Of a stretch of 35,525 nucleotides of DNA, positions 15,015-35,187 are shown piece after piece. Both the position numbers and the translations under genes were made by a program. Location: the NCBI GenBank assembly GCA_029781035.1, contig JAKOXK010000072.1, forward strand, positions 1 through 35,525, given 5' to 3'. The notes under the pieces were generated by a model that was not told the DNA's origin, searched no databases, and was given only the letters and a program-made list of their open reading frames with translations. Each line of letters begins with the position of its first letter. Position 1 is the first letter of the stretch. This DNA comes from Armatimonadota bacterium (GTDB lineage: Bacteria > Armatimonadota > Fimbriimonadia > Fimbriimonadales > Fimbriimonadaceae).

Positions 15015-18000
15015 TCAAGTGAGGCGTATACGGAAGTGCCCAGCACCGACCCGGAACGACCCGTCCGCTTGCTTTCCGCCTTCGGGCTGGCCATCGACGA
15101 ACGTCACTTGACCCTTACCAACGGCCGGCGGTCTCACGATGGCTCTCGTGTTGGCCGGTACCGTGAACTCAAGGTCCACGGTCTCTCCTGACTTCTTCCA
15201 AGAAACAGAGACCTTCCCACGCGGCGTCCGGAAGGTCGCTTTGGCCCAGTCGATACCCGGACCTGGAACCGGTGCTATCGTGAACTCAGACCAGCCGGGC
15301 TTGCCGGGCCGCACCCCGCCCAGTGTCTCCATGACCCACTCTCCGACCGAGCCAAGGGCCCAATGGTTGAAGGAGTTCATGCCGGGGTCTTGGAAGCCCC
15401 GACCCTTGACATAGCCGTCCCATCTCTCCCAGATCGTTGTCGCGCCGTTCTCGATCGTGTATCCCCAACTCGGGAAATCGGTGTTGAGCAGGAGCTTGTA
15501 GGCGAGATCGTTCCGTCCTCGCTGAGTGAGCACCTCCATCATGGGAAGGGTGCTATGAAACCCAGTCGTCAAGACTCCCTTGCGACGTTCAATGGCCTCC
15601 ACCAGTTTATTGAAAGCCTGATCTTCGAGCCCGGGTGGCAAGATCCCCATGTGGAGGGCCAATGCGTATCCGGCCTGTGTGTCACCCAAAATGCTCCCGT
15701 CGTCCTTCACGAAGCGTCTGTTGAAGGCATCTTTGATCCTGGCGGCTTCATCGCGGTATCGGGCTGCGTCCTTTCCCGCTCCCACGACCTCAGCGATGTG
15801 AGCCACCATGCGGACCGACTGGTACCACATGAGGGTGGCGAAGACCTCTTTGGGCACTTCCCCGCCGGTGCTGTCCCAGCCTTGTCGAACCAGCGTGTTA
15901 CCGTTCAGCCAGTCTCCGTAGTCGTTGTGACGGTCTTTCGCCCAGACCCAGTCTGGATTCCTGCTCGCGATCCAGTCGACCCACCTTTTGGTCGAATCGA
16001 AGTGATCCGCCAGCAGGCGGACGTCGCCCGAGTTCAGATAGTCGACCCAGGCGCACACCACACCGGCGTCGCCCCAGCCGGGGACACCAGTAAACCGGTC
16101 GTTCTTGCCATAAGGGTGCGGAGAAAAGTCCGGATAACGTCCGTCATCGGCTTGAGCATCGCGGACGTCCTGCAACCACTTGGTGAAAAAGCCCTCCATG
16201 TCCATGTTGAAGCAGGCCGTTTGGCAAAAAGCCAGGATGTCTCCCATCCAGCCGAGCCTCTCGTCGCGCTGAGGACAGTCGGTTGGGACGCTCATCAAGT
16301 TGGCCCGCTGCGTCCAAAAGATGTTCGCCCAAAGCCGGTTGACCATCGGGCTCGAACACTCAAACGTCGACGATTCAGGGGAGGAAGAGCAGAAGACCTC
16401 ACCGACGAAGTCACGAGCCTCGGGTTTGCCTGCAAGCCCTTCAATCTGCACATACCGGAATCCATGGTATGTAAAGTGGGGCCGCCAGCCCCGTACCGAC
16501 CCTGTCGACGGCAAGGTGACATGATCTCGCTGCGGCGCCCCGCGCAGGTTGGCCGTATAGACCGTCCCGTCCTCGTTCAGCATTTCCGCATACTGCAAGG
16601 TGACGGTGGCACCAGGTGCGGCCCTCAAGTCAGCTTTGAGCCATCCCACCATGTTCTGCCCCATGTCGAGGACGAACACGCCCGGGCGAGGCTCGGACAC
16701 GGACACGGGCTTCAGTTCGTCCACGACCCGGATGGCTTCGTTGGGCTGGGCCACTACGGCGACTGACTGCTGCGTCGCCGCCACCCCTTTCCAGCCGTCC
16801 GCTTGAAAACCCGGTTTGTCCCAGTCGGACATTGTTTTGGACAGGTCCACGGATTCACCGTCGTAAATGTCAGAACTCCGGATTGGCCCAGCCGTCGTAG
16901 AGGACCACGTCTTGTCTGAGGGAATCGTCAGAGTCGAACCGTCCTGATAGTCGACCACAAGCTGTGACCGGAACCAGGCTCGTCGACCATAGACGGCCCT
17001 TGGAAAACCGCGCGGATCAAGGGCCTGGGCCATTCCGATCCGGCCCGCATACCACCCGTCTCCCAACAAGGCGCCCATGGCGTTCCTGCCAGACTTCAAC
17101 AAGCGGGTCACGTCATACGCCTGATATTGCACGCGCGTCGTGTAGTCGGTCCACTCGGGCGCCAAGATGTGGTCACCGACCCTCTGGCCGTTGATCGAAG
17201 CTTCATAGGCCCCGAGCGCGGTCGCGTAGAGAGTCGCGCGTTTGATCTTGTGCTCTATCGTGAACTCCTTCCTGAGTTGGGTGACGGGGAGCGAATCCAG
17301 TCCAAGGAGCCCGTGTGACGTCAAGTCACCATCCACGAGCCGGTCAGGGGACCAGCTGTGGTCCCGTAAGCCGTCGCTCGCCGTGACCTGGGCTTTCAAT
17401 GCCAAGTCGGTCGTCCCCTTGAGGATCTGGAACTCGGCGAGGGCAAAGCCGAAGTGACCAGGGTCGCGTTCAGCGAGCTTCGACACTATGAGCCGAACAT
17501 AGCGGCCGCGGGCGCCTGGCGTGGCGAACGACACCTCTCGTTCCCCCGGGTTGGTGAAATCCAAGTCTTCGCGTGTGACGACGCGGCGCGGCGCTGAGAA
17601 GCCCGGGTCGTCGGACACTTCGATACGAAAGCGAACGGGGAACAAGAACCCAGGAGTGTCGGGCTGCCAGTCAAACGGTCTCGCTGGCCATAGGGCGACC
17701 GAATCGAACTCGCGGGACGCTCCCAGATCGATCATGACCCACTTCGGTTGATCTGCCGAAGCCGCCAGTTCGGAGTGGTAGCCGTTGTCAGCTGGCCGAA
17801 TAGGTGGCACAAGCTCAGGTGTCGTGATCCAGTCCCCCTGCCAGGCCCCAGGCTGAAGGAGTCCGACGCGGAAGGTAGCCGATCTCCAATCCCCTGCCTT
17901 ACCGTCTGCTCCCCAGAGCCGCACTTTCCAGGTGCAAGCTTCACCGCTGGTGAGGGCCTGGCCTGAGTATTCGACCTGCCCTTGATCCGTGGAAGCGACT

Positions 18001-18227
18001 TTCCCTGTGTCCCACAGGGTCTTTGAGTCCGACTGCACGACCACTTGATAGGCTGTTTGCCTGGCCCCAAAGCTGCTGTCCGCACACTCCCACGAAAAAC
18101 GGGGCTTGGTCGTCTGAATGGCGAGGGGATCAACGAGGTACTCGGTGCGGAGCCGGTCAGCGTGCATAGGGGTAGCCAAGGTTAGCAGAGCCGCGAAGGC
18201 GGAGAGCATAATCACAGTTTCACTCAT
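15015..18227 (-). CDS. Secreted alpha-L-rhamnosidase (GH78) with discoidin-like insert
   Basis: Glycoside hydrolase family 78, releasing terminal alpha-L-rhamnose from plant or bacterial glycans. About 1070 residues with an N-terminal signal peptide (hydrophobic core LSAFAALLTLATP, likely cut after MHA). Then an Ig-like domain (RTEYLVDPLAI, PRFSWEC), an F5/8 C (discoidin)-like insert around residues 150-280 (WVMIDLGASREFDSVALWP ... RGRYVRLIVSKL), a beta-sandwich (YEASINGQRVGDHILAPEWTDY) and the (alpha/alpha)6 barrel. The barrel holds DCPQRDERLGWMGD near residue 655 and TTIWERWDGY near residue 933; the Glu in each matches the proposed acid and base of the family. A beta-sandwich C-terminus closes it. 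TTG 18245 and ATG 18209 are alternative starts. Confidence 0.95.
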   Translation of the reverse strand: MSETVIMLSAFAALLTLATPMHADRLRTEYLVDPLAIQTTKPRFSWECADSSFGARQTAYQVVVQSDSKTLWDTGKVASTDQGQVEYSGQALTSGEACTWKVRLWGADGKAGDWRSATFRVGLLQPGAWQGDWITTPELVPPIRPADNGYHSELAASADQPKWVMIDLGASREFDSVALWPARPFDWQPDTPGFLFPVRFRIEVSDDPGFSAPRRVVTREDLDFTNPGEREVSFATPGARGRYVRLIVSKLAERDPGHFGFALAEFQILKGTTDLALKAQVTASDGLRDHSWSPDRLVDGDLTSHGLLGLDSLPVTQLRKEFTIEHKIKRATLYATALGAYEASINGQRVGDHILAPEWTDYTTRVQYQAYDVTRLLKSGRNAMGALLGDGWYAGRIGMAQALDPRGFPRAVYGRRAWFRSQLVVDYQDGSTLTIPSDKTWSSTTAGPIRSSDIYDGESVDLSKTMSDWDKPGFQADGWKGVAATQQSVAVVAQPNEAIRVVDELKPVSVSEPRPGVFVLDMGQNMVGWLKADLRAAPGATVTLQYAEMLNEDGTVYTANLRGAPQRDHVTLPSTGSVRGWRPHFTYHGFRYVQIEGLAGKPEARDFVGEVFCSSSPESSTFECSSPMVNRLWANIFWTQRANLMSVPTDCPQRDERLGWMGDILAFCQTACFNMDMEGFFTKWLQDVRDAQADDGRYPDFSPHPYGKNDRFTGVPGWGDAGVVCAWVDYLNSGDVRLLADHFDSTKRWVDWIASRNPDWVWAKDRHNDYGDWLNGNTLVRQGWDSTGGEVPKEVFATLMWYQSVRMVAHIAEVVGAGKDAARYRDEAARIKDAFNRRFVKDDGSILGDTQAGYALALHMGILPPGLEDQAFNKLVEAIERRKGVLTTGFHSTLPMMEVLTQRGRNDLAYKLLLNTDFPSWGYTIENGATTIWERWDGYVKGRGFQDPGMNSFNHWALGSVGEWVMETLGGVRPGKPGWSEFTIAPVPGPGIDWAKATFRTPRGKVSVSWKKSGETVDLEFTVPANTRAIVRPPAVGKGQVTFVDGQPEGGKQADGSFRVGAGHFRIRLT

Positions 18228-18313
18228 CGCAGCATGACGGCGCAAGGAGGGCAGGTTGCGGCGCTTGGCAAGGGCGGAACATTGGCTGTCAGCGAGCTAT
18301 CTGCTCTTCTGCC

Positions 18314-18559: not shown

Positions 18560-20230
18560 GTGAGACCGACAGTCTTTTACAGAACCTTCGTCGTCTGCCC
18601 GGCGGTCTTTGGGACCAGCTTGGCTTTGGCCACCTCGACGCCGCCGCAACAAGTGCAGACGGTGAACACGTTTTACTACTCGACGCTCGCGGGCTACCAG
18701 CTTGACCAGACGTTCCGGATGGCGAACAACGGGACGAGCGACATTCACCGCCTGACGGCCCGCTACGTCGCCGATGGCGAGAACAGCAGGCCCGAGGTCG
18801 CAGTTTACTTCGACCGAGACTACTTTGACGGAGTTGGGCACGGGCGTGTCGTCCGGCTCAACGACGACAACACCCAGAACCATGCCGCCGCGATGTGCGG
18901 CAACTATGGCGGGTATGTCGGCGGCCACCTCGACAGCTCGACCTACCCGGATGTGCCCACCTGGTGGCTCAATACGGGGTCTGCCAACAAGATAAGACGT
19001 GGGTCGACAAATGACACAGGTCTGTTTTGGGACGTCAACAAGGACGGTGACTTCGTCGGATACTACAAAGACGGCTCTGACATCTGGAGTGCCGTATGCT
19101 ATGACGGCGTTAATGGCAACACGCTCTTTGGTCCCTCAGGTCTCTACCTAGGCTTTGAGGCCAAGGGAGTGAGCAACCGGCGCACCGAGAACGGAAGTAG
19201 TAACGTCAAAGACATGGTTGGAAGAGGCTGGACCGATTCAGGCGATGTGCCGGCCTTGTGGCGGTACGACGGGGCGAATTGGTCGTTCACCGACGTCTCA
19301 ACGGTGACTGGCTGGCCCACCGGCCGGAACGGCTTTTTTGTCGGCATAACCGACAAGGTGTCGGGAGACTCCAACTCCCCATACGCGGTGGGCTACATAG
19401 AGGACGACGGTGTCAACGGCGGCCAACCGTTCATTTACGCGGTTGGCAGCGGGACCTTCAAGCTCCTGGGCACGGAGTACGGCGCGCCGCTGCAAGTGAG
19501 CAACGCTCCCTATGACGACACTTCCGACCCGGTTGTGTCTTTCGTCGGCACGTCCGCCGGCCAGCCCTACGTCTGGGTCGGTTCCCCCGACCCGAACGCG
19601 ACCTATAATGGGACTGGCGTGGACGTCAACGCGTTCCTGGACCCGGACACTCCCACCTCTTCTGAGGCGGCGACCGCCACGGGGGTCGACCGGGACTTCG
19701 TCTTCGGCGGCAGCAACTATGGTGGCGCCGACGAACGGAAGCCTTGGATGACCAACGACTCCGACTGGTACCACTTCAGCGCCAGTTCGTACAGCGCCAC
19801 CGTGACGACGGGGTCGGTCGTAGGCGGCTCGACCAACGACCTGCTCTATGCCGACGGCAAGTGGGCAAAAGTGCAGAGAGGCACGGGGCTGCCGCAGATA
19901 GTCCTTACTGTCGAGGAGGTCTCGAACGGCATGCCCCCGAGCGGCCTCGCCGTGCGCGTGACGGCCCGGATCGAGCAGAACTACGCGGTGGACATGAAGC
20001 TCTACCTTTACAACGCTTACACGAGCAGTTGGGAAGGGCCGCTCTCCACCACGAGGCTCGCCCAGACGATGAAGACGGCCTTCGGCGTGGCGCAGGACGC
20101 CAACCTCTTGCACTACGCGGACGGCAACGGGCATGTCAAGGCCAAGGTCACCGTGACCTCGGTCGGCCTGCTCGGGCTTTGGGACGTCGACTTTGAACAA
20201 GCGGAGCTGATCGGTGCGAACCACCACTAG
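18560..20230 (+). CDS. Secreted propeller-like protein, first gene of duplicated module (copy 1)
   Basis: A 556-residue exported protein of unknown function. The N-terminus is a signal peptide (FYRTFVVCPAVFGTSLALA, then TSTPPQQVQ). The body has HAF-like segments in which a Gly-rich strand is followed by an aromatic one (GLFWDVNKDGDFVGYYKDG, DVPALWRYDGANWSFTDVS, PYAVGYIEDDG). Blocks shared with the paralogue at 26611 include CGNYGG, VGITD, PYAVGY, PFIY, QVSN, PYVWVGSP and GVDRDF.FGG. The last ~110 residues look like a separate beta domain (VRVTARIEQNYAVDMKLYLYN; ANLLHYADGNGHVKAKV). There is no PEP-CTERM tail. The downstream HAF/PEP-CTERM gene overlaps its end by 17 bases, so the pair is co-translated. 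It may be a surface or matrix protein; no enzyme motif was found. Confidence 0.85.
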   Translation: MRPTVFYRTFVVCPAVFGTSLALATSTPPQQVQTVNTFYYSTLAGYQLDQTFRMANNGTSDIHRLTARYVADGENSRPEVAVYFDRDYFDGVGHGRVVRLNDDNTQNHAAAMCGNYGGYVGGHLDSSTYPDVPTWWLNTGSANKIRRGSTNDTGLFWDVNKDGDFVGYYKDGSDIWSAVCYDGVNGNTLFGPSGLYLGFEAKGVSNRRTENGSSNVKDMVGRGWTDSGDVPALWRYDGANWSFTDVSTVTGWPTGRNGFFVGITDKVSGDSNSPYAVGYIEDDGVNGGQPFIYAVGSGTFKLLGTEYGAPLQVSNAPYDDTSDPVVSFVGTSAGQPYVWVGSPDPNATYNGTGVDVNAFLDPDTPTSSEAATATGVDRDFVFGGSNYGGADERKPWMTNDSDWYHFSASSYSATVTTGSVVGGSTNDLLYADGKWAKVQRGTGLPQIVLTVEEVSNGMPPSGLAVRVTARIEQNYAVDMKLYLYNAYTSSWEGPLSTTRLAQTMKTAFGVAQDANLLHYADGNGHVKAKVTVTSVGLLGLWDVDFEQAELIGANHH

Positions 20231-21311
20231 ACCCGTCCGGGCCACCATGTTGGCCCTCTGCCTCGCCGCCCTCGGGGCGGCCAGGCCCGGCGCGCTCGCG
20301 CAGACGCTCTACCATGTCACCGACCTCGGTCGGATCACGACCGTTGGGGTCGGCAACGGCGGCATGGTCGCCGGGCACAACGGGGAGACGAGCTGCGCGT
20401 GGGACGTCGGACATGGTTTCACGCTCATACCGGGCATCGACGGGCCAGCCTACACGGTGGCACAAGACGTGAACGGCTCCGGCCAGGTCGTGGGCTATGA
20501 CGACTCGACGCCGACGAGGCAGGCTTTCATCTGGGACAGGGTGAGGGGGACGAGGGCGGTCGCCGACTTCGGGACTGTCGTCGGTAAGAAAGCACGGAGC
20601 GAGGCTTACGGAGTGAACGGCCTTGGCCATGTCGTTGGGAGGTACTTGAGTCCAGATGGGATATTCGACTCCTTCCTGTGGAGTCCCGGGGCAGGCTGGC
20701 ACAAGCTTCAGAGACCGGAGCCTGGTTATGGAACGGAAGCCTTCAGAGTCAACGACCAGGACGAAGCCGTCGGAACAACCCACGGACAACTTCAAGGAGT
20801 GTATTGGCGGTCCGACGGCACATCACTCGAGATGGGCAACTTACTCAGCCAGTACGAGAACAACCCGTACGACATCAATGGCCTCAGCCATGTCTGCGGC
20901 TGGACCTGGGGCCCCCTGGGGGACGTGGCCTACTTCTGGGCCGACGGCGTCTACACGCCCATCTTCAACCCCATCCGCCGCGACTTCTACATGAGCGGCA
21001 ACGCGATCAACGACTCCGACCTCATGGTCGGCTCGATGTACCGCGACTACTACACCCCGTCCGCCTTCCAATGGACGGCTGACGGCGGCGTGGTCCAGCT
21101 CAACTCCCTGCTCAACGAGTCAGGCCAGGGATGGGACTTGCAGGAGGCCATAGGAGTTAACAACCCGGGCCAGATCACGGGCTATGGAAGGCACAACGGC
21201 CAGTACGCGGCGTTCTTGTTGACGCCGGTCGTCCCAGAGCCGCCCGCGATTCTAGTTCTTGCGCCCCTGGCCGCACTCATCGTTCTACGGAGGCGTGGAA
21301 AAGGAAACTAG
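20214..21311 (+). CDS. HAF-repeat PEP-CTERM protein (copy 1)
   Basis: A 365-residue exported surface protein. A signal peptide (TMLALCLAALGAARPGALA) precedes at least five HAF-family repeats of the form D/G-[VI]-N-x-x-G-x-V-x-G-x...A-F-x-W (for example DVNGSGQVVGYDDS..QAFIWD, DINGLSHVCGWTWG..AYFWADG, GVNNPGQITGYGR), expected to build a beta propeller. The C-terminus is a PEP-CTERM sorting signal: VPEPP, a hydrophobic segment ILVLAPLAALIVL and RRRGKGN. An exosortase, not encoded here, would cut and anchor it. GTG 20214 has GGAG at 20203-20206 and overlaps the preceding gene by 17 bases. The homologue at 28307 shares order and layout. Confidence 0.9.
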   Translation: MRTTTRPVRATMLALCLAALGAARPGALAQTLYHVTDLGRITTVGVGNGGMVAGHNGETSCAWDVGHGFTLIPGIDGPAYTVAQDVNGSGQVVGYDDSTPTRQAFIWDRVRGTRAVADFGTVVGKKARSEAYGVNGLGHVVGRYLSPDGIFDSFLWSPGAGWHKLQRPEPGYGTEAFRVNDQDEAVGTTHGQLQGVYWRSDGTSLEMGNLLSQYENNPYDINGLSHVCGWTWGPLGDVAYFWADGVYTPIFNPIRRDFYMSGNAINDSDLMVGSMYRDYYTPSAFQWTADGGVVQLNSLLNESGQGWDLQEAIGVNNPGQITGYGRHNGQYAAFLLTPVVPEPPAILVLAPLAALIVLRRRGKGN

Positions 21312-26459: not shown

Positions 26460-26610
26460 CGAGGGGAATCACTAACGATTCAATAAAGAAATTCTGATGT
26501 AACCTGAATTCAGTTTTTCCGATTCCTAACTATCTGTAGTTTGGAGATGTAGCTTGGCCCTTTTCTGAATGCCTGTTGAAGGCAAGTCGGCCCACGTAAA
26601 GGTGAACAGA

Positions 26611-28297
26611 ATGAAACGTACCATTAAGAAAAGGACTCTGGTAGCCAGCCTGGCCGTCCTTGTGGCAAGCCAAGCCGTTGCCCAGTCGCCCCCCCCCTCC
26701 GCAAGTGAACTCCTTGGCGGCGACCCATAGTTGGCCAGCCGGATATTCCGATGTCTTGGAGACCTACCGGATCTCGAACAACGGTGTGACAAACCCGCAC
26801 CGAATCAACACGAGCCTCCTGTGGTTCGAGTCGCAGGATCTGTCCAAGTACCGGGCGTTCTACTGGGATCGTGACAACTCCACCCACTTCGTGCCGCTTC
26901 CCGTTCCAAGCGACTACACACTTTCTGCCTCGACGTGCGGCAATTACGGCGGCTCGTTCGCTGGGTACAGCGACGGTAACGGCCACCAGAGCACGTACCC
27001 CGGATACTGGGCCAGCTCCAGCTCCTTTCAGCAGTACTTCTCGTCTTCGTACACCACAGGGGCCTGCGAGGACATCAACGCGTCGGGACTCGCGGTCGGG
27101 TGGTTGATCGCTACCAATAGTGGTAGCCCTGTGCCCTTCGCCACAAGCGATGGTTCAAACGCAACCTTCCTAACGGTGCCAACTGAGTATAGTGCTGGCG
27201 GCAAGGCGCTAGGGATCAACTCTGACGGCTATATCGGAGGCCAACTGTTCGGAGGCTCGGGCCAGAACCCCGACCCTCCCGTGATATGGAAGCCAAACCA
27301 GCAACAAGGCTACGACATCGTTGACGTCTCCGCTTCTTCCGACTGGCCGAGCGGACGAGCTGGCTACATAATGGGGATCACGGACGTGAACAGCTCGGAC
27401 AACAACGGCCCCTATGCCGTAGGGTACATGATGGAGGGCTCCGACCCGGCGTGCCCGTTCATCTACTCAATGGGCACGCAGAGGATCCGGTTGCTTAGCA
27501 CGAACCTCGGCATCCCGACCCAAGTCTCGAACCAGTCCTATGATACGTCAGACGCGGTCGTTTCTTTCACCGGCAACGGCATGGGCGGGACGGCCCTTCC
27601 CTACGTCTGGGTGGGCAGTCCGGCATGGGACGCCCAGAACAACGGTTGCGCAATCGACGCCTGGGCGTTCTTCGACCCGGACGTGAGCCGCCACAGTTCG
27701 ACGATCCAGCCGGTAGTGACGGGGATTGACAGGGACTTTGACTTCGGCGGTTACAACTTCAACACTGAGTCTCGCGATATCTGGATGTCCTTGGCTTCGG
27801 ACTGGGGCCTGCTGTCTACCAACCCCGACATCTACCGTACCGCTGGGAACGTTGTCGGCGGGCAGTTCACCTACGATGCTAAGTACGCTGACGGGAGGTA
27901 CGTCACGTTGCAGAGGGTTCCTAACGCGACCCAGGGTCCTCCGATCGTCGTCGTCTGCGATGAGCAGATGGACGGGGCGCTGCTCGAACACAACGACCTT
28001 CAGGTTTCAGTGCGTGGAACCTGCCGATACGAAAATGCTGGATCCTACTCAGCGAGCCTGTATCTCTACAACTGGGGATCCGGCACTTGGGACGCCGTCG
28101 GGTCTGCGCAGGCCCTCAACGGCTACATGTGGACAAGCTGCGGCAAAGTGTCCGGCCATGACAACGTCCTGCCCTACGTGGACACGGACAATGGAAACAT
28201 GGTTCGAGCGAGGCTGGCGGTGAGCCAGACCGGTCCAGTCTCGGTCGTGACGTGGAGGGTCTCGGTCGAGTCCCTGAGGATCTTGGCCAAGCCATAG
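26611..28297 (+). CDS. Secreted propeller-like protein, first gene of duplicated module (copy 2), frameshifted at a C9 run
   Basis: ATG 26611 has AAAGGTG at 26598-26604, six bases upstream, and begins a classic signal peptide: a Lys/Arg-rich start (MKRTIKKR), the core LVASLAVLVASQAVA, then QSPPP. In this frame a TAG stop follows at codon 40. The homologous body lies one frame over and runs to 28297. Removing one C from the run at 26689-26697 joins them into 561 residues, matching the 556-residue copy 1 from signal peptide to end (SPPPPQVNS here, STPPQQVQT there). Shared blocks include CGNYGG, GITDV, PYAVGY, PFIY, QVSN, PYVWVGSP, GIDRDFDFGG and VVGG, with a C-terminal beta domain. As written it would not be exported. 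It may be phase-variable, a pseudogene or a sequencing error. Confidence 0.8.
26689..26697 (+). repeat. Homopolymer run of nine C in the signal-peptide junction
   Basis: Nine consecutive C, just after the codons for the signal-peptide cleavage region (AVAQS). Nine C leads to a stop shortly after; eight C opens the full protein. No comparable run is present in copy 1 (18560 gene). Confidence 0.9.
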
Positions 28298-28306
28298 GTG
28301 CCTACG

Positions 28307-29389
28307 ATGGTTGTGAGACTTGTCGCCAGTTGTCTCTTCGCAGCATTGGTGCCAGCGTGGTGCGTGGGCCAGTGGCGGTTCAGCGTCAGCGACATTGGGA
28401 ACTGGCAGCCGAACGACATTGGGAACGACGGTATGGCTGAAGGGTGGGGTTCAACACAGTCCAGATCGTTAGCCTGGGACTCCGTGCATGGCACTATCAG
28501 CATTCCCCCATTGAACGGCGACTACAGCTGCACCGTCTGGGGGCTCAACGACGGTGGTGTCGTAGCTGGCTACAGCGACGGACCAGGCACCCGAGAGGCG
28601 ATTACCTGGGATCGGGTGAACGGCACAAGGAAGGTTCCCGGCTTCGACGGGTACGGCAGCAACGCCTTCGACGTCAACGACTCGGGCGAGGTGGTCGGCC
28701 AATATTGGAGGGACGTGCAGGGAACCTACAACTCCTACATCCACCGGCCGGGCCAGGGATGGTCCACACTCGACCCCCTCTACCCTGAGGGGAGCACGCA
28801 GGTGCTCTTCGTCAACAACTCGGGCGTCTCGACCGGGCATGCCGACCCCGCCCCTCACCTCGGCCGCGGCGTCTATTGGACAGCCGACGGCCGCGTCCAC
28901 GACCTGGGGCTCATGCTAAACCAGACGCAGAGCGACCCGACCGACATCAACGACGCGGGAGTCATCACGGGCAGCACCTACGGCCCGCTGGGGAACGCGG
29001 GGTTCGTGCGCTCTACGGACGGCGCCTTCACGCGGATCGTCAACCCCGTGCGGTCTGACTACGCCACCTTCGGTATAGGCGTGAACAACGCTGGGCTCGT
29101 GCTGGCGCGCTACATCGACACCGACCTCGTCGTCCGGGGCTGCCTGTGGACACCGGCGACTGGCTCGGTGCCCCTCAACGGCCTGTTGGACGGTTCCGGC
29201 GCAGGCTGGGACATCCAGTATGTGATGGGGATCAACGACTCCAACCAGATCGTCGGAGTCGGAAAGTACCTCGGGCACAACGAGGCGTTCGTGTTGAACC
29301 TGGTTCCCGAACCGCCCCCTTGGCTGGCCTTCGCGGCACTGGCCCTGCTCCTAGGAAGAAGGCGGGATCGCAAGACGATCTACAGCTAG
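28307..29389 (+). CDS. HAF-repeat PEP-CTERM protein (copy 2)
   Basis: A 360-residue exported surface protein, paralogous to the gene at 20214. Signal peptide VVRLVASCLFAALVPAWCVG; HAF repeats such as GLNDGGVVAGYSDG..EAITWD, DVNDSGEVVGQYW, DINDAGVITGSTYGPLG and GINDSNQIVGVGKYLGHNEAFVL; then a PEP-CTERM tail with VPEPPPWLAF, a short hydrophobic stretch and GRRRDRK. ATG 28307 has AGGTG at 28296-28300, overlapping the previous stop; GTG 28298 is an alternative that directly abuts it. Because it is coupled to the frameshifted gene upstream, its own expression could be reduced whenever that gene is out of frame (inference). Confidence 0.9.
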   Translation: MVVRLVASCLFAALVPAWCVGQWRFSVSDIGNWQPNDIGNDGMAEGWGSTQSRSLAWDSVHGTISIPPLNGDYSCTVWGLNDGGVVAGYSDGPGTREAITWDRVNGTRKVPGFDGYGSNAFDVNDSGEVVGQYWRDVQGTYNSYIHRPGQGWSTLDPLYPEGSTQVLFVNNSGVSTGHADPAPHLGRGVYWTADGRVHDLGLMLNQTQSDPTDINDAGVITGSTYGPLGNAGFVRSTDGAFTRIVNPVRSDYATFGIGVNNAGLVLARYIDTDLVVRGCLWTPATGSVPLNGLLDGSGAGWDIQYVMGINDSNQIVGVGKYLGHNEAFVLNLVPEPPPWLAFAALALLLGRRRDRKTIYS

Positions 29390-32085: not shown

Positions 32086-33531
32086 TCAGTACATCCGGCT
32101 GGGCTTGCCGCCGAGGCGACGGACGGTCGCCGCGTGGTGCCCGCGGCCGGTCTCTTGAAGGCGTTGCACGTACTTGGCCCAGTGGTCGGCCCGCTCGTTC
32201 GCATGGTACGGCCCGCCCTCCTCTTGCACGACCTCGAACGGATCGCCGAGTGGGCACTGCAGGGCATGCTCGGCGAACCAAGTTTCCATCTCGCGCTCCT
32301 TGTCGGCGACAAGCTTCTGGTTGTCGCTAGCGATGTTGGTCGTCTCATGGGGGTCGGCGGCAAGATCGAACAGCATGTGTTCAGGAAAGTCCTTGAGCCC
32401 GGTGTGGTAAGTCTTGATGTAGATCATCTCATCCCACCGGACAGCGCGCTGCAGGCTCCAGGCGCCTTGGCTGAGATAGAGTTGGTCGCGGCCCCTATCA
32501 TCGAAAGTCGCAAACGGCTCGCCCATCCATCCGTCGGTCTTTGCGCCGGCAAGTTCCAGGATCGTTGCCGCGAGGTCGATGTGAGTGTGCAGTCCCTGAT
32601 CGGTGCTGCCTGGCCGAGTGACGCCGGGCCAACGCACGACGCAGGGAATGTGGCACGTGAACTCGTCGGCAGTTTGGTGGTCGCCCCACACGTTCAGCTC
32701 TCCCAGATTCTCGCCATGGTCGGCGGCGAGGACGACGGCGGTGCCTTCGGGAATCATCTCCAGCAGCCGTCCGATGTAACCGTCGACATAGCGCACACCG
32801 GTGTCGTACCCATCGATGTGGACCCTAGCGTCGTCCAAGTTCTTGATCTCACTGACCCCCCATCGCCAGGATGGTGGTAGGTTGGGCCAGTAGTCGGGCA
32901 CTTCGCGCGCGGAATGGGCGCCATAGCTTTCACGCTGGCGATCGATGATCTCTTGGTTCAGCCAGGGCTCCAGGGGCAGGCCTCTGAACGGATTGCCGAA
33001 CGACTCGGGTGTGTCATAGGGCGTGTGCGGATCCCAAAAGTTGACATGCAGGAACCAGTCTTCCTTCTTGGCGTTCCGCCGCAGCCAGTCCGCTGCCGGC
33101 TCGAAGATCTCCTCCGCGTTCTCCAGCCCACCCTTGCCCGGGTCGTACGTCTCGTTGAACCCCCAGGTCATCTGGTACCCCGAGTGCCGCCTCGGGAACG
33201 ACGACACGCTGGCCGTGTGCAACCCCGCATTGAAGAGCCGCGCCGCAAGCGACCCCTCCGCCCACTTGTTGCGAAAGTCGCGCCCGTGGCCTTCGGGCGG
33301 CAAATCGGCGCAGAGCCCGCCGTGGTTCACCAGCCCCGACACCACCCCCGGCCGCCCTGTGAAGAACGCCGTCCGGCTTGGCAAGCACGGCACGTCGGTG
33401 GCGTAGACGTTCCGCACGACGCACCCATGCGCGGCGAGAGCGTCGATGTTCGGGCTCGTCGGCCGGGTGTAGCCATAGCAGCCGAGGTGGCGCGGGCGCA
33501 GGGAGTCGACGTCGATGTAGAGGATGCGCAT
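32086..33531 (-). CDS. Sulfatase (type I, formylglycine-dependent)
   Basis: A 481-residue type I sulfatase that removes sulfate esters, probably from a glycan. The maturation motif C-x-P-S-R is intact, with Cys49 in VPCLPSRTAFFTG expected to become formylglycine. Metal-site residues are seen in LYIDVDSLRPRHLG and LAADHGENLGE (Asp271/His272). NFWDPHTPYDTP and the C-terminal block MLFDLAADPHETTN are usual for the family. No signal peptide is present (MRILYIDVDS begins the fold), so it should act in the cytoplasm unlike most glycan sulfatases. No formylglycine-generating enzyme is in the window. It starts 12 bases after the DUF4091 stop. Confidence 0.95.
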   Translation of the reverse strand: MRILYIDVDSLRPRHLGCYGYTRPTSPNIDALAAHGCVVRNVYATDVPCLPSRTAFFTGRPGVVSGLVNHGGLCADLPPEGHGRDFRNKWAEGSLAARLFNAGLHTASVSSFPRRHSGYQMTWGFNETYDPGKGGLENAEEIFEPAADWLRRNAKKEDWFLHVNFWDPHTPYDTPESFGNPFRGLPLEPWLNQEIIDRQRESYGAHSAREVPDYWPNLPPSWRWGVSEIKNLDDARVHIDGYDTGVRYVDGYIGRLLEMIPEGTAVVLAADHGENLGELNVWGDHQTADEFTCHIPCVVRWPGVTRPGSTDQGLHTHIDLAATILELAGAKTDGWMGEPFATFDDRGRDQLYLSQGAWSLQRAVRWDEMIYIKTYHTGLKDFPEHMLFDLAADPHETTNIASDNQKLVADKEREMETWFAEHALQCPLGDPFEVVQEEGGPYHANERADHWAKYVQRLQETGRGHHAATVRRLGGKPSRMY

Positions 33532-33543
33532 CGCGCGAGGAGG

Positions 33544-35187
33544 CTACCTTTTGGACTGCTGGATCACGACTAGCTGGGTCAGCAACTCCCGCCTTGCGGC
33601 TCGGAACGCCCTGATGTCCAGGTCGTACCTGTCCATCGCAAGCACGATCTCGTCCGCGATTCGGTGCGCCGCCACCGGATCTTTGTCCGCCAACATCCAC
33701 AGGATTTCGTTGTCGGCGAGGCCGTCCCGCATGGACTCGTTCCGCCGCGAATCGAGCAACGCTCCCTTGCCCGGGTAGGTGATCCATCCGTCACCGCCTG
33801 GCGAATAGTCGTGTGTGAACTGGTCTTTCTTGCTGCCGTTCGCTTCGTTTAACGCCCAGTAGTCGTAGCCCCAATGTAAGTAGCCGGTCACGCCGTACTT
33901 GAAAGAGATCCAAGTCAGCAGTCGTGTCTTGATCAGCGGTTCCTCGATCAAGCGGTTGGCATAGGTGCCCTGCGGTTTCCAACACGTGTAGAACCATAGC
34001 TCCTTGCCCGACTTCTGGAAACTCTTGAAGAGGTCGTAGTTCTCGTTCAGAAAATCGAGCTCCGGCGAGTAGACGTCCATCAGACCGGCGAACTTGACCC
34101 CGCAACACGTGTCGAGCAGGCGGATTCCAGGCAGGTACTTGCGCGCGACTTCGACCAAAGCCCGGTACGTGTCGACGTTGTCGTCGCACGGCTCGTCCAC
34201 CACGTGCTGTAGGTAGATCTTGTCCCAGTGCTTCGCCTTCAGGTGCGCCAGCAACGCCGGGAAAAAGAACGAATAGAACTTGTCCACGGCAGGATCGGTG
34301 GCCGGCACCACCTTCGCCACGACCTTGCCGTCCTCGATCACCCGCACCATGCCCAGATTCGGCTGCGCCCAGCCGTTGCGCGTGCCCATTCCGCCGCCTT
34401 CGATCGTGCCGATCAGACCGGCCTTCATCAACATCTTCACGCGGCGGTCGAACTCCGAAAAGTCCACTGTCATTTGGCCGCTCTTGTCGATACCAAACTT
34501 CGACAGACCGAGCGCGTCGGCCCCTCCCACGTTCTGCCGGTGAGCGGCGAGGCTCTTCGCGAGCACGTCGATCTGGGCGTCGACTTCGTTTTGGCCCTTC
34601 TTGGTCGGCACATGCCAGTATTGAGGCCACGCGAAGAACCAGTTCGTCGATTTCATCCGATTCTTGCTGACGAACACACCGTAGACCTTGGCCTCGATCG
34701 GTACCTTGCTCGCAACCTTGGTGTCGCCTAGAGTCGTTGTGACGGTCACCGTACTCTTGTAGAGGCCGGGCTTTGCGTCTTTCGAGATCGGGAGGTCGAT
34801 CCAGACCGCCTGGCTCTGATCCTTGTCCACGCGCACAGACGCATCCGCGAGCAACGGATCGGGAAACGAAGCGGGGGGTGCTTTGAGTTGGGTCGGCGAG
34901 GGCCAGGTCGGCGGCTTGTTGCAGTCGACATAGCCGATGAACCTGCACCGCGGTAGGCCCAGCCCCTTCATCTCGCTGGCGCTGACCGACACCGTCGCGG
35001 AATCGGGCACGCGGACGACGACTTGCCACTCCGCGACCTCGCCTTTCGCGACGTCATAAGGCGCGACCTGCCTCTCGACAGGCGCCGTCTCGCGGAAGAC
35101 TGCCTCGAGCGGATCCAACTGCCAAACCTGGACGGCCGGCACTGACGCCACCAACAACCCGGGTCCCATACTCCGAGCATCTCCCAT
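33544..35187 (-). CDS. DUF4091 / GH123-like glycoside hydrolase domain protein
   Basis: A 547-residue protein. The N-terminal ~150 residues form a beta-sandwich (AEWQVVVRVPDSATVSVSAS, PGLYKSTVTVT). A TIM-barrel-like domain follows, with KIYLQHVVDEPCDDN near residue 330; the adjacent Asp-Glu is the catalytic pair in GH123 N-acetylgalactosaminidases, which use substrate assistance. The DUF4091 end is clear: GVTGYLHWGYDYW, DGWITYPGKGALLDSRRNESMRDGLADNEI. A short hydrophobic start (GPGLLVASVPAVQVW) may be a weak signal or anchor. ATG 35169 is an alternative start. It lies 63 bases after the GH63-like stop. Hexosaminidase activity is likely from family, the exact substrate unknown. Confidence 0.87.
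   Translation of the reverse strand: MGDARSMGPGLLVASVPAVQVWQLDPLEAVFRETAPVERQVAPYDVAKGEVAEWQVVVRVPDSATVSVSASEMKGLGLPRCRFIGYVDCNKPPTWPSPTQLKAPPASFPDPLLADASVRVDKDQSQAVWIDLPISKDAKPGLYKSTVTVTTTLGDTKVASKVPIEAKVYGVFVSKNRMKSTNWFFAWPQYWHVPTKKGQNEVDAQIDVLAKSLAAHRQNVGGADALGLSKFGIDKSGQMTVDFSEFDRRVKMLMKAGLIGTIEGGGMGTRNGWAQPNLGMVRVIEDGKVVAKVVPATDPAVDKFYSFFFPALLAHLKAKHWDKIYLQHVVDEPCDDNVDTYRALVEVARKYLPGIRLLDTCCGVKFAGLMDVYSPELDFLNENYDLFKSFQKSGKELWFYTCWKPQGTYANRLIEEPLIKTRLLTWISFKYGVTGYLHWGYDYWALNEANGSKKDQFTHDYSPGGDGWITYPGKGALLDSRRNESMRDGLADNEILWMLADKDPVAAHRIADEIVLAMDRYDLDIRAFRAARRELLTQLVVIQQSKR

Follow-up and report, generated by a model that had tools for sequence, protein, structure and literature searches.

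A family of secreted proteins in Armatimonadota is a strong candidate for phase variation by slippery leader repeats

Introduction

In the opa genes of Neisseria, the repeats are located in the leader. The repeat table of PMC5320596 gives the opa unit as CTTCT, and for pilC1/pilC2 it records poly-G translational phase variation with a G run of 9-15 (Jonsson 1991). The pilC run lies in the 5' coding part, with translation occurring only at an in-frame length, and the opa genes form a multi-copy family of exported proteins in which every copy has its own leader repeat and is independently in or out of frame. A survey of frame transitions (PMC3711429) used two criteria: a cluster of at least five homologous genes, each frameshifted at a repeat, and a function of some members already tied to phase variation. 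Repeat switching has so far been linked mainly to pathogens, and a 2025 review (PMC11868660) lists among the major open questions why large sets of phase-variable loci seem to be confined to pathogen genomes, and whether database bias is responsible. Our literature search found no paper combining 'phase variation' and 'Armatimonad'.

Here we describe a gene from an uncultured Armatimonadota bacterium, termed copy 2, in which a run of nine C follows the signal peptide. With a probability of about 0.73, we take copy 2 to be a member of a secreted-protein family that switches ON and OFF through slipped-strand mispairing at leader repeats. By analogy, the working principle would equal that of pilC and opa. 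Both likenesses hold across clear differences: the pilC protein is unrelated and from another phylum, and in Armatimonadota the run is tied to the signal peptide across a whole set of paralogues, and C runs or a 7-bp array can take the place of a G run; the opa repeats are pentamers in a host-associated pathogen, and the genes have no sequence relation to ours.

Anatomy of copy 2

The window, which is the whole 35,525-nt stretch of DNA analysed here, is one entire contig of a 3.42-Mb genome assembled in 98 contigs. It encodes copy 2 and a paralogue, copy 1, whose bodies share 38% identity (Table 1). The original prediction had the start, C9 tract, stop and shifted body of copy 2 at the correct coordinates, the ribosome site that it proposed ahead of the start codon is present, and translation with eight C reproduced its 561-residue product. 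The length of the tract sets the frame, and the other frames stop early: the product is 39 aa at C9, 32 aa at C10 and a predicted 561 aa at C8. The body frame is free of stops from 26645 to the stop ending at 28297. Judged by eye, cleavage likely occurs before Q25, between AVA and QS. An alternative body-frame start at TTG 26660 was rejected, as its product would have no signal peptide.

Table 1. Features of the two paralogous loci in the window
Feature	Position	Strand	Remarks
Copy 1, 556-aa paralogue	18560..20230	+	GTG start preceded by GGGAGG; in frame, without tract
Copy 1 partner gene	20214..21311	+	17-nt overlap with copy 1; PEP-CTERM-like tail; HAF repeat TIGR02913 39.5 bits (cut-off 22.65)
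Shine-Dalgarno-like site AAAGGTGA	26598..26605	+	5 nt upstream of ATG 26611; read directly
Copy 2 signal peptide MKRTIKKRTLVASLAVLVASQAVA	26611..26682	+	Start ATG 26611; from translation
C9 tract, proposed switch	26689..26697	+	Directly past the cleavage site; codons 26-29
Copy 2 body, shifted frame, without internal stop	26698..28297	+	
TAG stop closing the 39-aa product in the C9 state	26728..26730	+	Reached after 39 codons
Copy 2 partner, secreted-protein gene	28298..29389	+	GTG immediately after copy 2 stop; DUF3466-like, E 0.0085, below cut-off

In the body of copy 2, (D/I)N..G..VG repeats are accompanied by a domain at the C-terminus that is common to many proteins of these genomes. Neither copy matched an NCBIfam model in a search to E 0.1 or a Pfam family above cut-off, copy 1 giving no Pfam match and copy 2 sub-threshold matches only, and a search of solved structures with the family profile returned no significant match. 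In structure prediction from the two window proteins, the mean pLDDT for copy 2 was 35, and the model was discarded. A scan for promoters and terminators gave no signal above chance. As a separate observation, positions 360-527 of profile A1 describe a C-terminal domain of about 150 aa that occurs in many otherwise different proteins of the window genome and of each of its relatives; it had no Pfam family above cut-off and may be a common surface or export domain.

Taken alone, copy 2 makes the weaker case. Its C9 is at the low end of the tract lengths in the family and sits inside a proline-rich stretch that is matched in copy 1 (TPPQQ) and in a homologue from genome G007 (TPPPPQ), and it could therefore have arisen by chance from that stretch. 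It could also be a miscall or a recent lesion.

Homopolymer runs in the window genome

Homopolymers are the commonest site of indel errors, the genome is in 98 contigs, and one base is enough to open copy 2, all of which speak for a sequencing or assembly error in which the true tract is in frame; in other genomes of the family, many of the long G/C runs lie at contig ends, which suggests that some are artefacts. The remaining runs of the window genome argue against this explanation. The C9 is the sole C or G run of at least 7 in the window contig, and the whole genome contains 20 runs of at least 8 and 7 of at least 9, versus about 109 of at least 9 expected for independent bases. We inspected all 20, and the C9 of copy 2 alone splits a gene; at least 11 of the other 19 sit in long unbroken frames, including a G9 in a glycosyltransferase-like gene, and others are intergenic. 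The assembly is thus not riddled with homopolymer breaks. Taken together with the homologues described below, these data make a miscalled tract quite unlikely.

Elsewhere in the window genome, on contig 94 at about 98.03 kb (L048), a G9 lies just 5' of the likely start of a conserved gene, NIF3-like by eye, where it could affect the ribosome site.

For other genomes, we collected runs of at least 9 in four of those that bear homologues and runs of at least 10 in several further genomes of the taxonomic family. A first, loose run classifier showed little contrast. A genome-wide contingency system in all run-rich genomes was rejected, as the runs of G055, G056, G065, G068 and G079 are mostly outside signal peptides. 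Absence of mismatch repair as a cause was likewise rejected, with a MutS homologue found in 8 of 8 genomes tested, including all six that carry family members. In G068, G065, G057, G079 and others, many G/C runs of at least 10 fall within the last bases of contigs; these look like an assembly or sequencing artefact that inflates the run counts of those genomes.

Leader repeats recur among homologues

A direct orthologue of copy 2 was found neither in three congeners nor in a wider search of genome contigs, and its nearest body homologues among the 85 genomes of the taxonomic family are 25-37% identical. We describe the protein family by profile: the order and the phylum were searched with body profiles, independently of the run listing, and members were defined as matches above 90 bits to profile A3, which covers the N-terminal and middle body region. 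A few A3 rows had first been spotted via their runs; all are BLAST-related to the others. The profile gives 18 members in six genomes and five genera of one Armatimonadota family, and no match above 90 bits in any other of the 291 Armatimonadota genomes searched.

An unstable leader repeat occurs in 14 of the 18 members, in the 5' coding region and with a unit that is not a multiple of three. Thirteen are G or C homopolymers, 9-13 bases long, located within the signal peptide or adjacent to it (C9 in copy 2; G12 and G12 in G034; C11, G13 and G11 in G053; G12, G9, G9 and G9 in G052; C9, G9 and G9 in G007). Given the run count of each genome, 0.014 homopolymer cases would be expected in the first 120 bp of 18 genes, corresponding to P ~1e-34 with genes treated as independent, which the members are not. 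Five genomes each deviate on their own, with per-genome P values of 5e-4 to 1e-11, the window genome being at 5e-4, and the runs vary among members in base and position. On the family tree, the labels G, C and none require at least six changes, and three G changes are forced by well-supported branches. A miscalled tract in copy 2 would leave the runs in the leaders of 13 homologues, and the 7-bp array, unexplained.

This array, in the G007 member at 1685 kb, consists of nine CAGTCGC copies between the ATG and the signal peptide; one added copy would yield a 360-aa product. Three such units in a row occur nowhere else in the G007 genome, nor in four others. We are less sure of this member because its ATG has only a poor ribosome site.

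The position of the run differs with its base. For most members with a G run, in-frame translation gives the order hydrophobic core-GGG-xAxAQ, with the run encoding glycine between the core and the signal-peptidase site; tract changes by three before the AxA-Q site should be harmless. C runs encode proline before the core, in the c-region or, in copy 2, directly after the cleavage site. At least five other secreted proteins, unrelated to the family, likewise have a signal peptide broken by a homopolymer: one in G007 (PA14), two in G052 (FlgD-Ig and an unknown), one in G034 (an unknown) and one in G068. All of them are out of frame; these genes were found via their runs and carry less weight than the family count.

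Mixed frames and open bodies

Twelve of the 14 repeat-bearing members are out of frame (OFF) and two are in frame (ON). Among the 13 homopolymer members, a shift of -1 is needed in six, of +1 in five and of 0 in two, and two ON of 13 fits random frames (P of at most two ON = 0.14). All four repeat-free members, including copy 1, have a possible in-frame start before the signal peptide. Calculated by hand, the hypergeometric P for 12/14 out of frame with a repeat versus 0/4 without is about 0.005; before the 7-bp array was counted, the same contrast gave 0.0025. Wrong-frame products stop early throughout the family, except in the G052 members at 664 and 758 kb, which reach 169 aa in one off frame.

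These numbers bear on plain decay, in which copy 2 would have become a pseudogene recently, with the run merely marking where the indel fell. A single lesion in one genome is by itself indistinguishable from decay, and a few homologues do carry a second lesion. A G034 member at 99 kb has AAG where its near-identical twin has ATG, the G052 member at 275 kb has an in-frame TAG close to its end, one member needs a TTG start and the G052 member at 1414 kb has an unusually long n-region, which together suggest that some members may be decaying. We rate decay as unlikely. Lesions would be expected anywhere, yet the OFF state is limited to members with a leader repeat, and the reading frames of the OFF bodies extend for about 310-560 codons, a single additional stop being present among the 12; the several disrupting mutations in orthologues by which the original prediction would have recognised a pseudogene were not found. 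For two OFF homologues from different genera, 47% identical, dN/dS is about 0.30, below 1, with dS near saturation. Open frames and this ratio indicate that the OFF bodies have probably been in use for most of their history.

A run of at least nine identical bases is a good slippage site, and CCC-C is a known +1 shift-prone context. Full-length protein might thus be made from an out-of-frame gene by transcriptional slippage or by ribosomal frameshifting on the run. The mixed direction of the needed shift, -1 in some members and +1 in others, disfavours a single programmed frameshift, and two members need no shift at all, and a further one carries a 7-bp repeat in place of a run. We regard recoding as highly improbable, and leaky slippage could coexist with switching.

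Proposed mechanism

Translational phase variation accounts well for these data; random sequencing error, plain decay or a programmed frameshift in one direction would each account for them poorly. In the mechanism that we propose, a slippery repeat is built into the genes of the family, in most cases a homopolymer of G or C that lies within the signal peptide or adjoins it. Slipped-strand mispairing at replication would add or remove repeat units, and the change in length would bring the body into or out of frame with the start codon, such that cells switch at random between a full-length exported protein and a stub of 10-50 residues. Copy 2 would have been assembled in the OFF state, and the overlapping downstream gene would switch along through translational coupling. 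The anatomy, the recurrence of the repeat, the mixed frames and the open bodies are observed; from these we infer a tract length that varies in living populations, an expression that switches with it and a downstream gene that follows.

The ON/OFF switch suggested in the original prediction thus gains strong comparative support, with 14 of 18 members bearing a repeat and 12 of these shifted, some by -1 and some by +1, over open bodies; variation of tract length within a population and a surface location of the protein are predictions. Measured against the survey criteria of PMC3711429, the family comprises 12 out-of-frame members, from the window and from four further genomes, where the survey asks for at least five, and its body belongs to no Pfam or NCBIfam family that could tie a member to phase variation. 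For this second reason, we file it as a strong candidate for repeat-mediated translational phase variation and not as a proven case.

Leaders and bodies behave as modules

Several pairs of paralogues point to exchange between leaders and bodies. On contig 15 of G034, L160 and L161 have in common a 115-bp leader cassette with G12, in which a single base differs, turning the ATG start into AAG in one copy; their bodies are 35% identical. The reverse is found in G052, where L135 (1414 kb) and L340 (1429 kb) lie 14 kb from each other. Their DNA is 86% identical beginning with the first mature residue, but their leaders are unrelated: the one includes G9 and is out of frame, and the other has no run and is in frame. 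On contig 1 of the same genome, L090 (about 664.5 kb, + strand) and L131 (about 758.5 kb, - strand) are identical over about 1.1 kb; they lie on opposite strands at a distance of 94 kb. The identical segment comprises the leader, the G9 run and the first part of the body, after which the two diverge abruptly and end in different C-terminal parts. If they recombined, the segment could be inverted and the C-termini swapped. A shared leader with different bodies, a shared body with different leaders and the abrupt divergence of L090 and L131 together indicate that leaders and bodies behave as separate modules that are shuffled among copies.

A broader reading, to which we give somewhat less than an even chance, is that this one family of uncultured, apparently environmental Armatimonadota combines multi-locus switching with shuffling. 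Leader cassettes of start codon, signal peptide and slippery repeat would recombine independently of bodies among paralogues, several unrelated secreted proteins would carry the same type of switch, and each cell would display a random surface repertoire, outside any known pathogen or commensal setting. For the switching alone, the 14 candidates, which come from uncultured bacteria of five genera, make the question raised in PMC11868660 directly testable with existing metagenome reads. If the family does switch, random surface variation would be rewarded in these cells, for example, and speculatively, by phages or grazers.

Downstream partner genes

In five of seven loci examined, a second secreted-protein gene overlaps or abuts the first. 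These are both window copies, both G034 loci and the G007 locus at 1685 kb, where the partner genes are 347-365 codons long, one of them running open to the end of its stretch, and begin between -31 and 0 with respect to the preceding stop. The G052 locus at 275 kb and G001 C108 have no second secreted-protein gene in the downstream position. From this arrangement, we reasonably infer that translation of the downstream gene may be coupled to that of the first; the close spacing lends support to the coupling originally proposed, through which the downstream gene would be affected.

The label HAF/PEP-CTERM, which had been given to the partner of copy 2, is only partly right. The copy 1 partner passes the HAF cut-off and ends in a PEP-like tail, with just a weak match to a PEP model other than TIGR02595. 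The copy 2 partner passes neither cut-off, although it ends in a PEP-hydrophobic-RRR tail: it scores 14.1 bits against the PEP-CTERM model TIGR02595 (cut-off 16), and the TIGR02913 search gave no match for it or for copies 1 and 2. The bodies of both genes have repeats of the (D/I)N..G..VG type in common with HAF-repeat/PEP-CTERM proteins; copies 1 and 2 differ from these in matching no NCBIfam model up to E 0.1 and no Pfam model above its cut-off. Elsewhere in the window, at 15015-18245 and 32086-35187, genes for alpha-L-rhamnosidase, sulfatase and GH123 suggest polysaccharide use.
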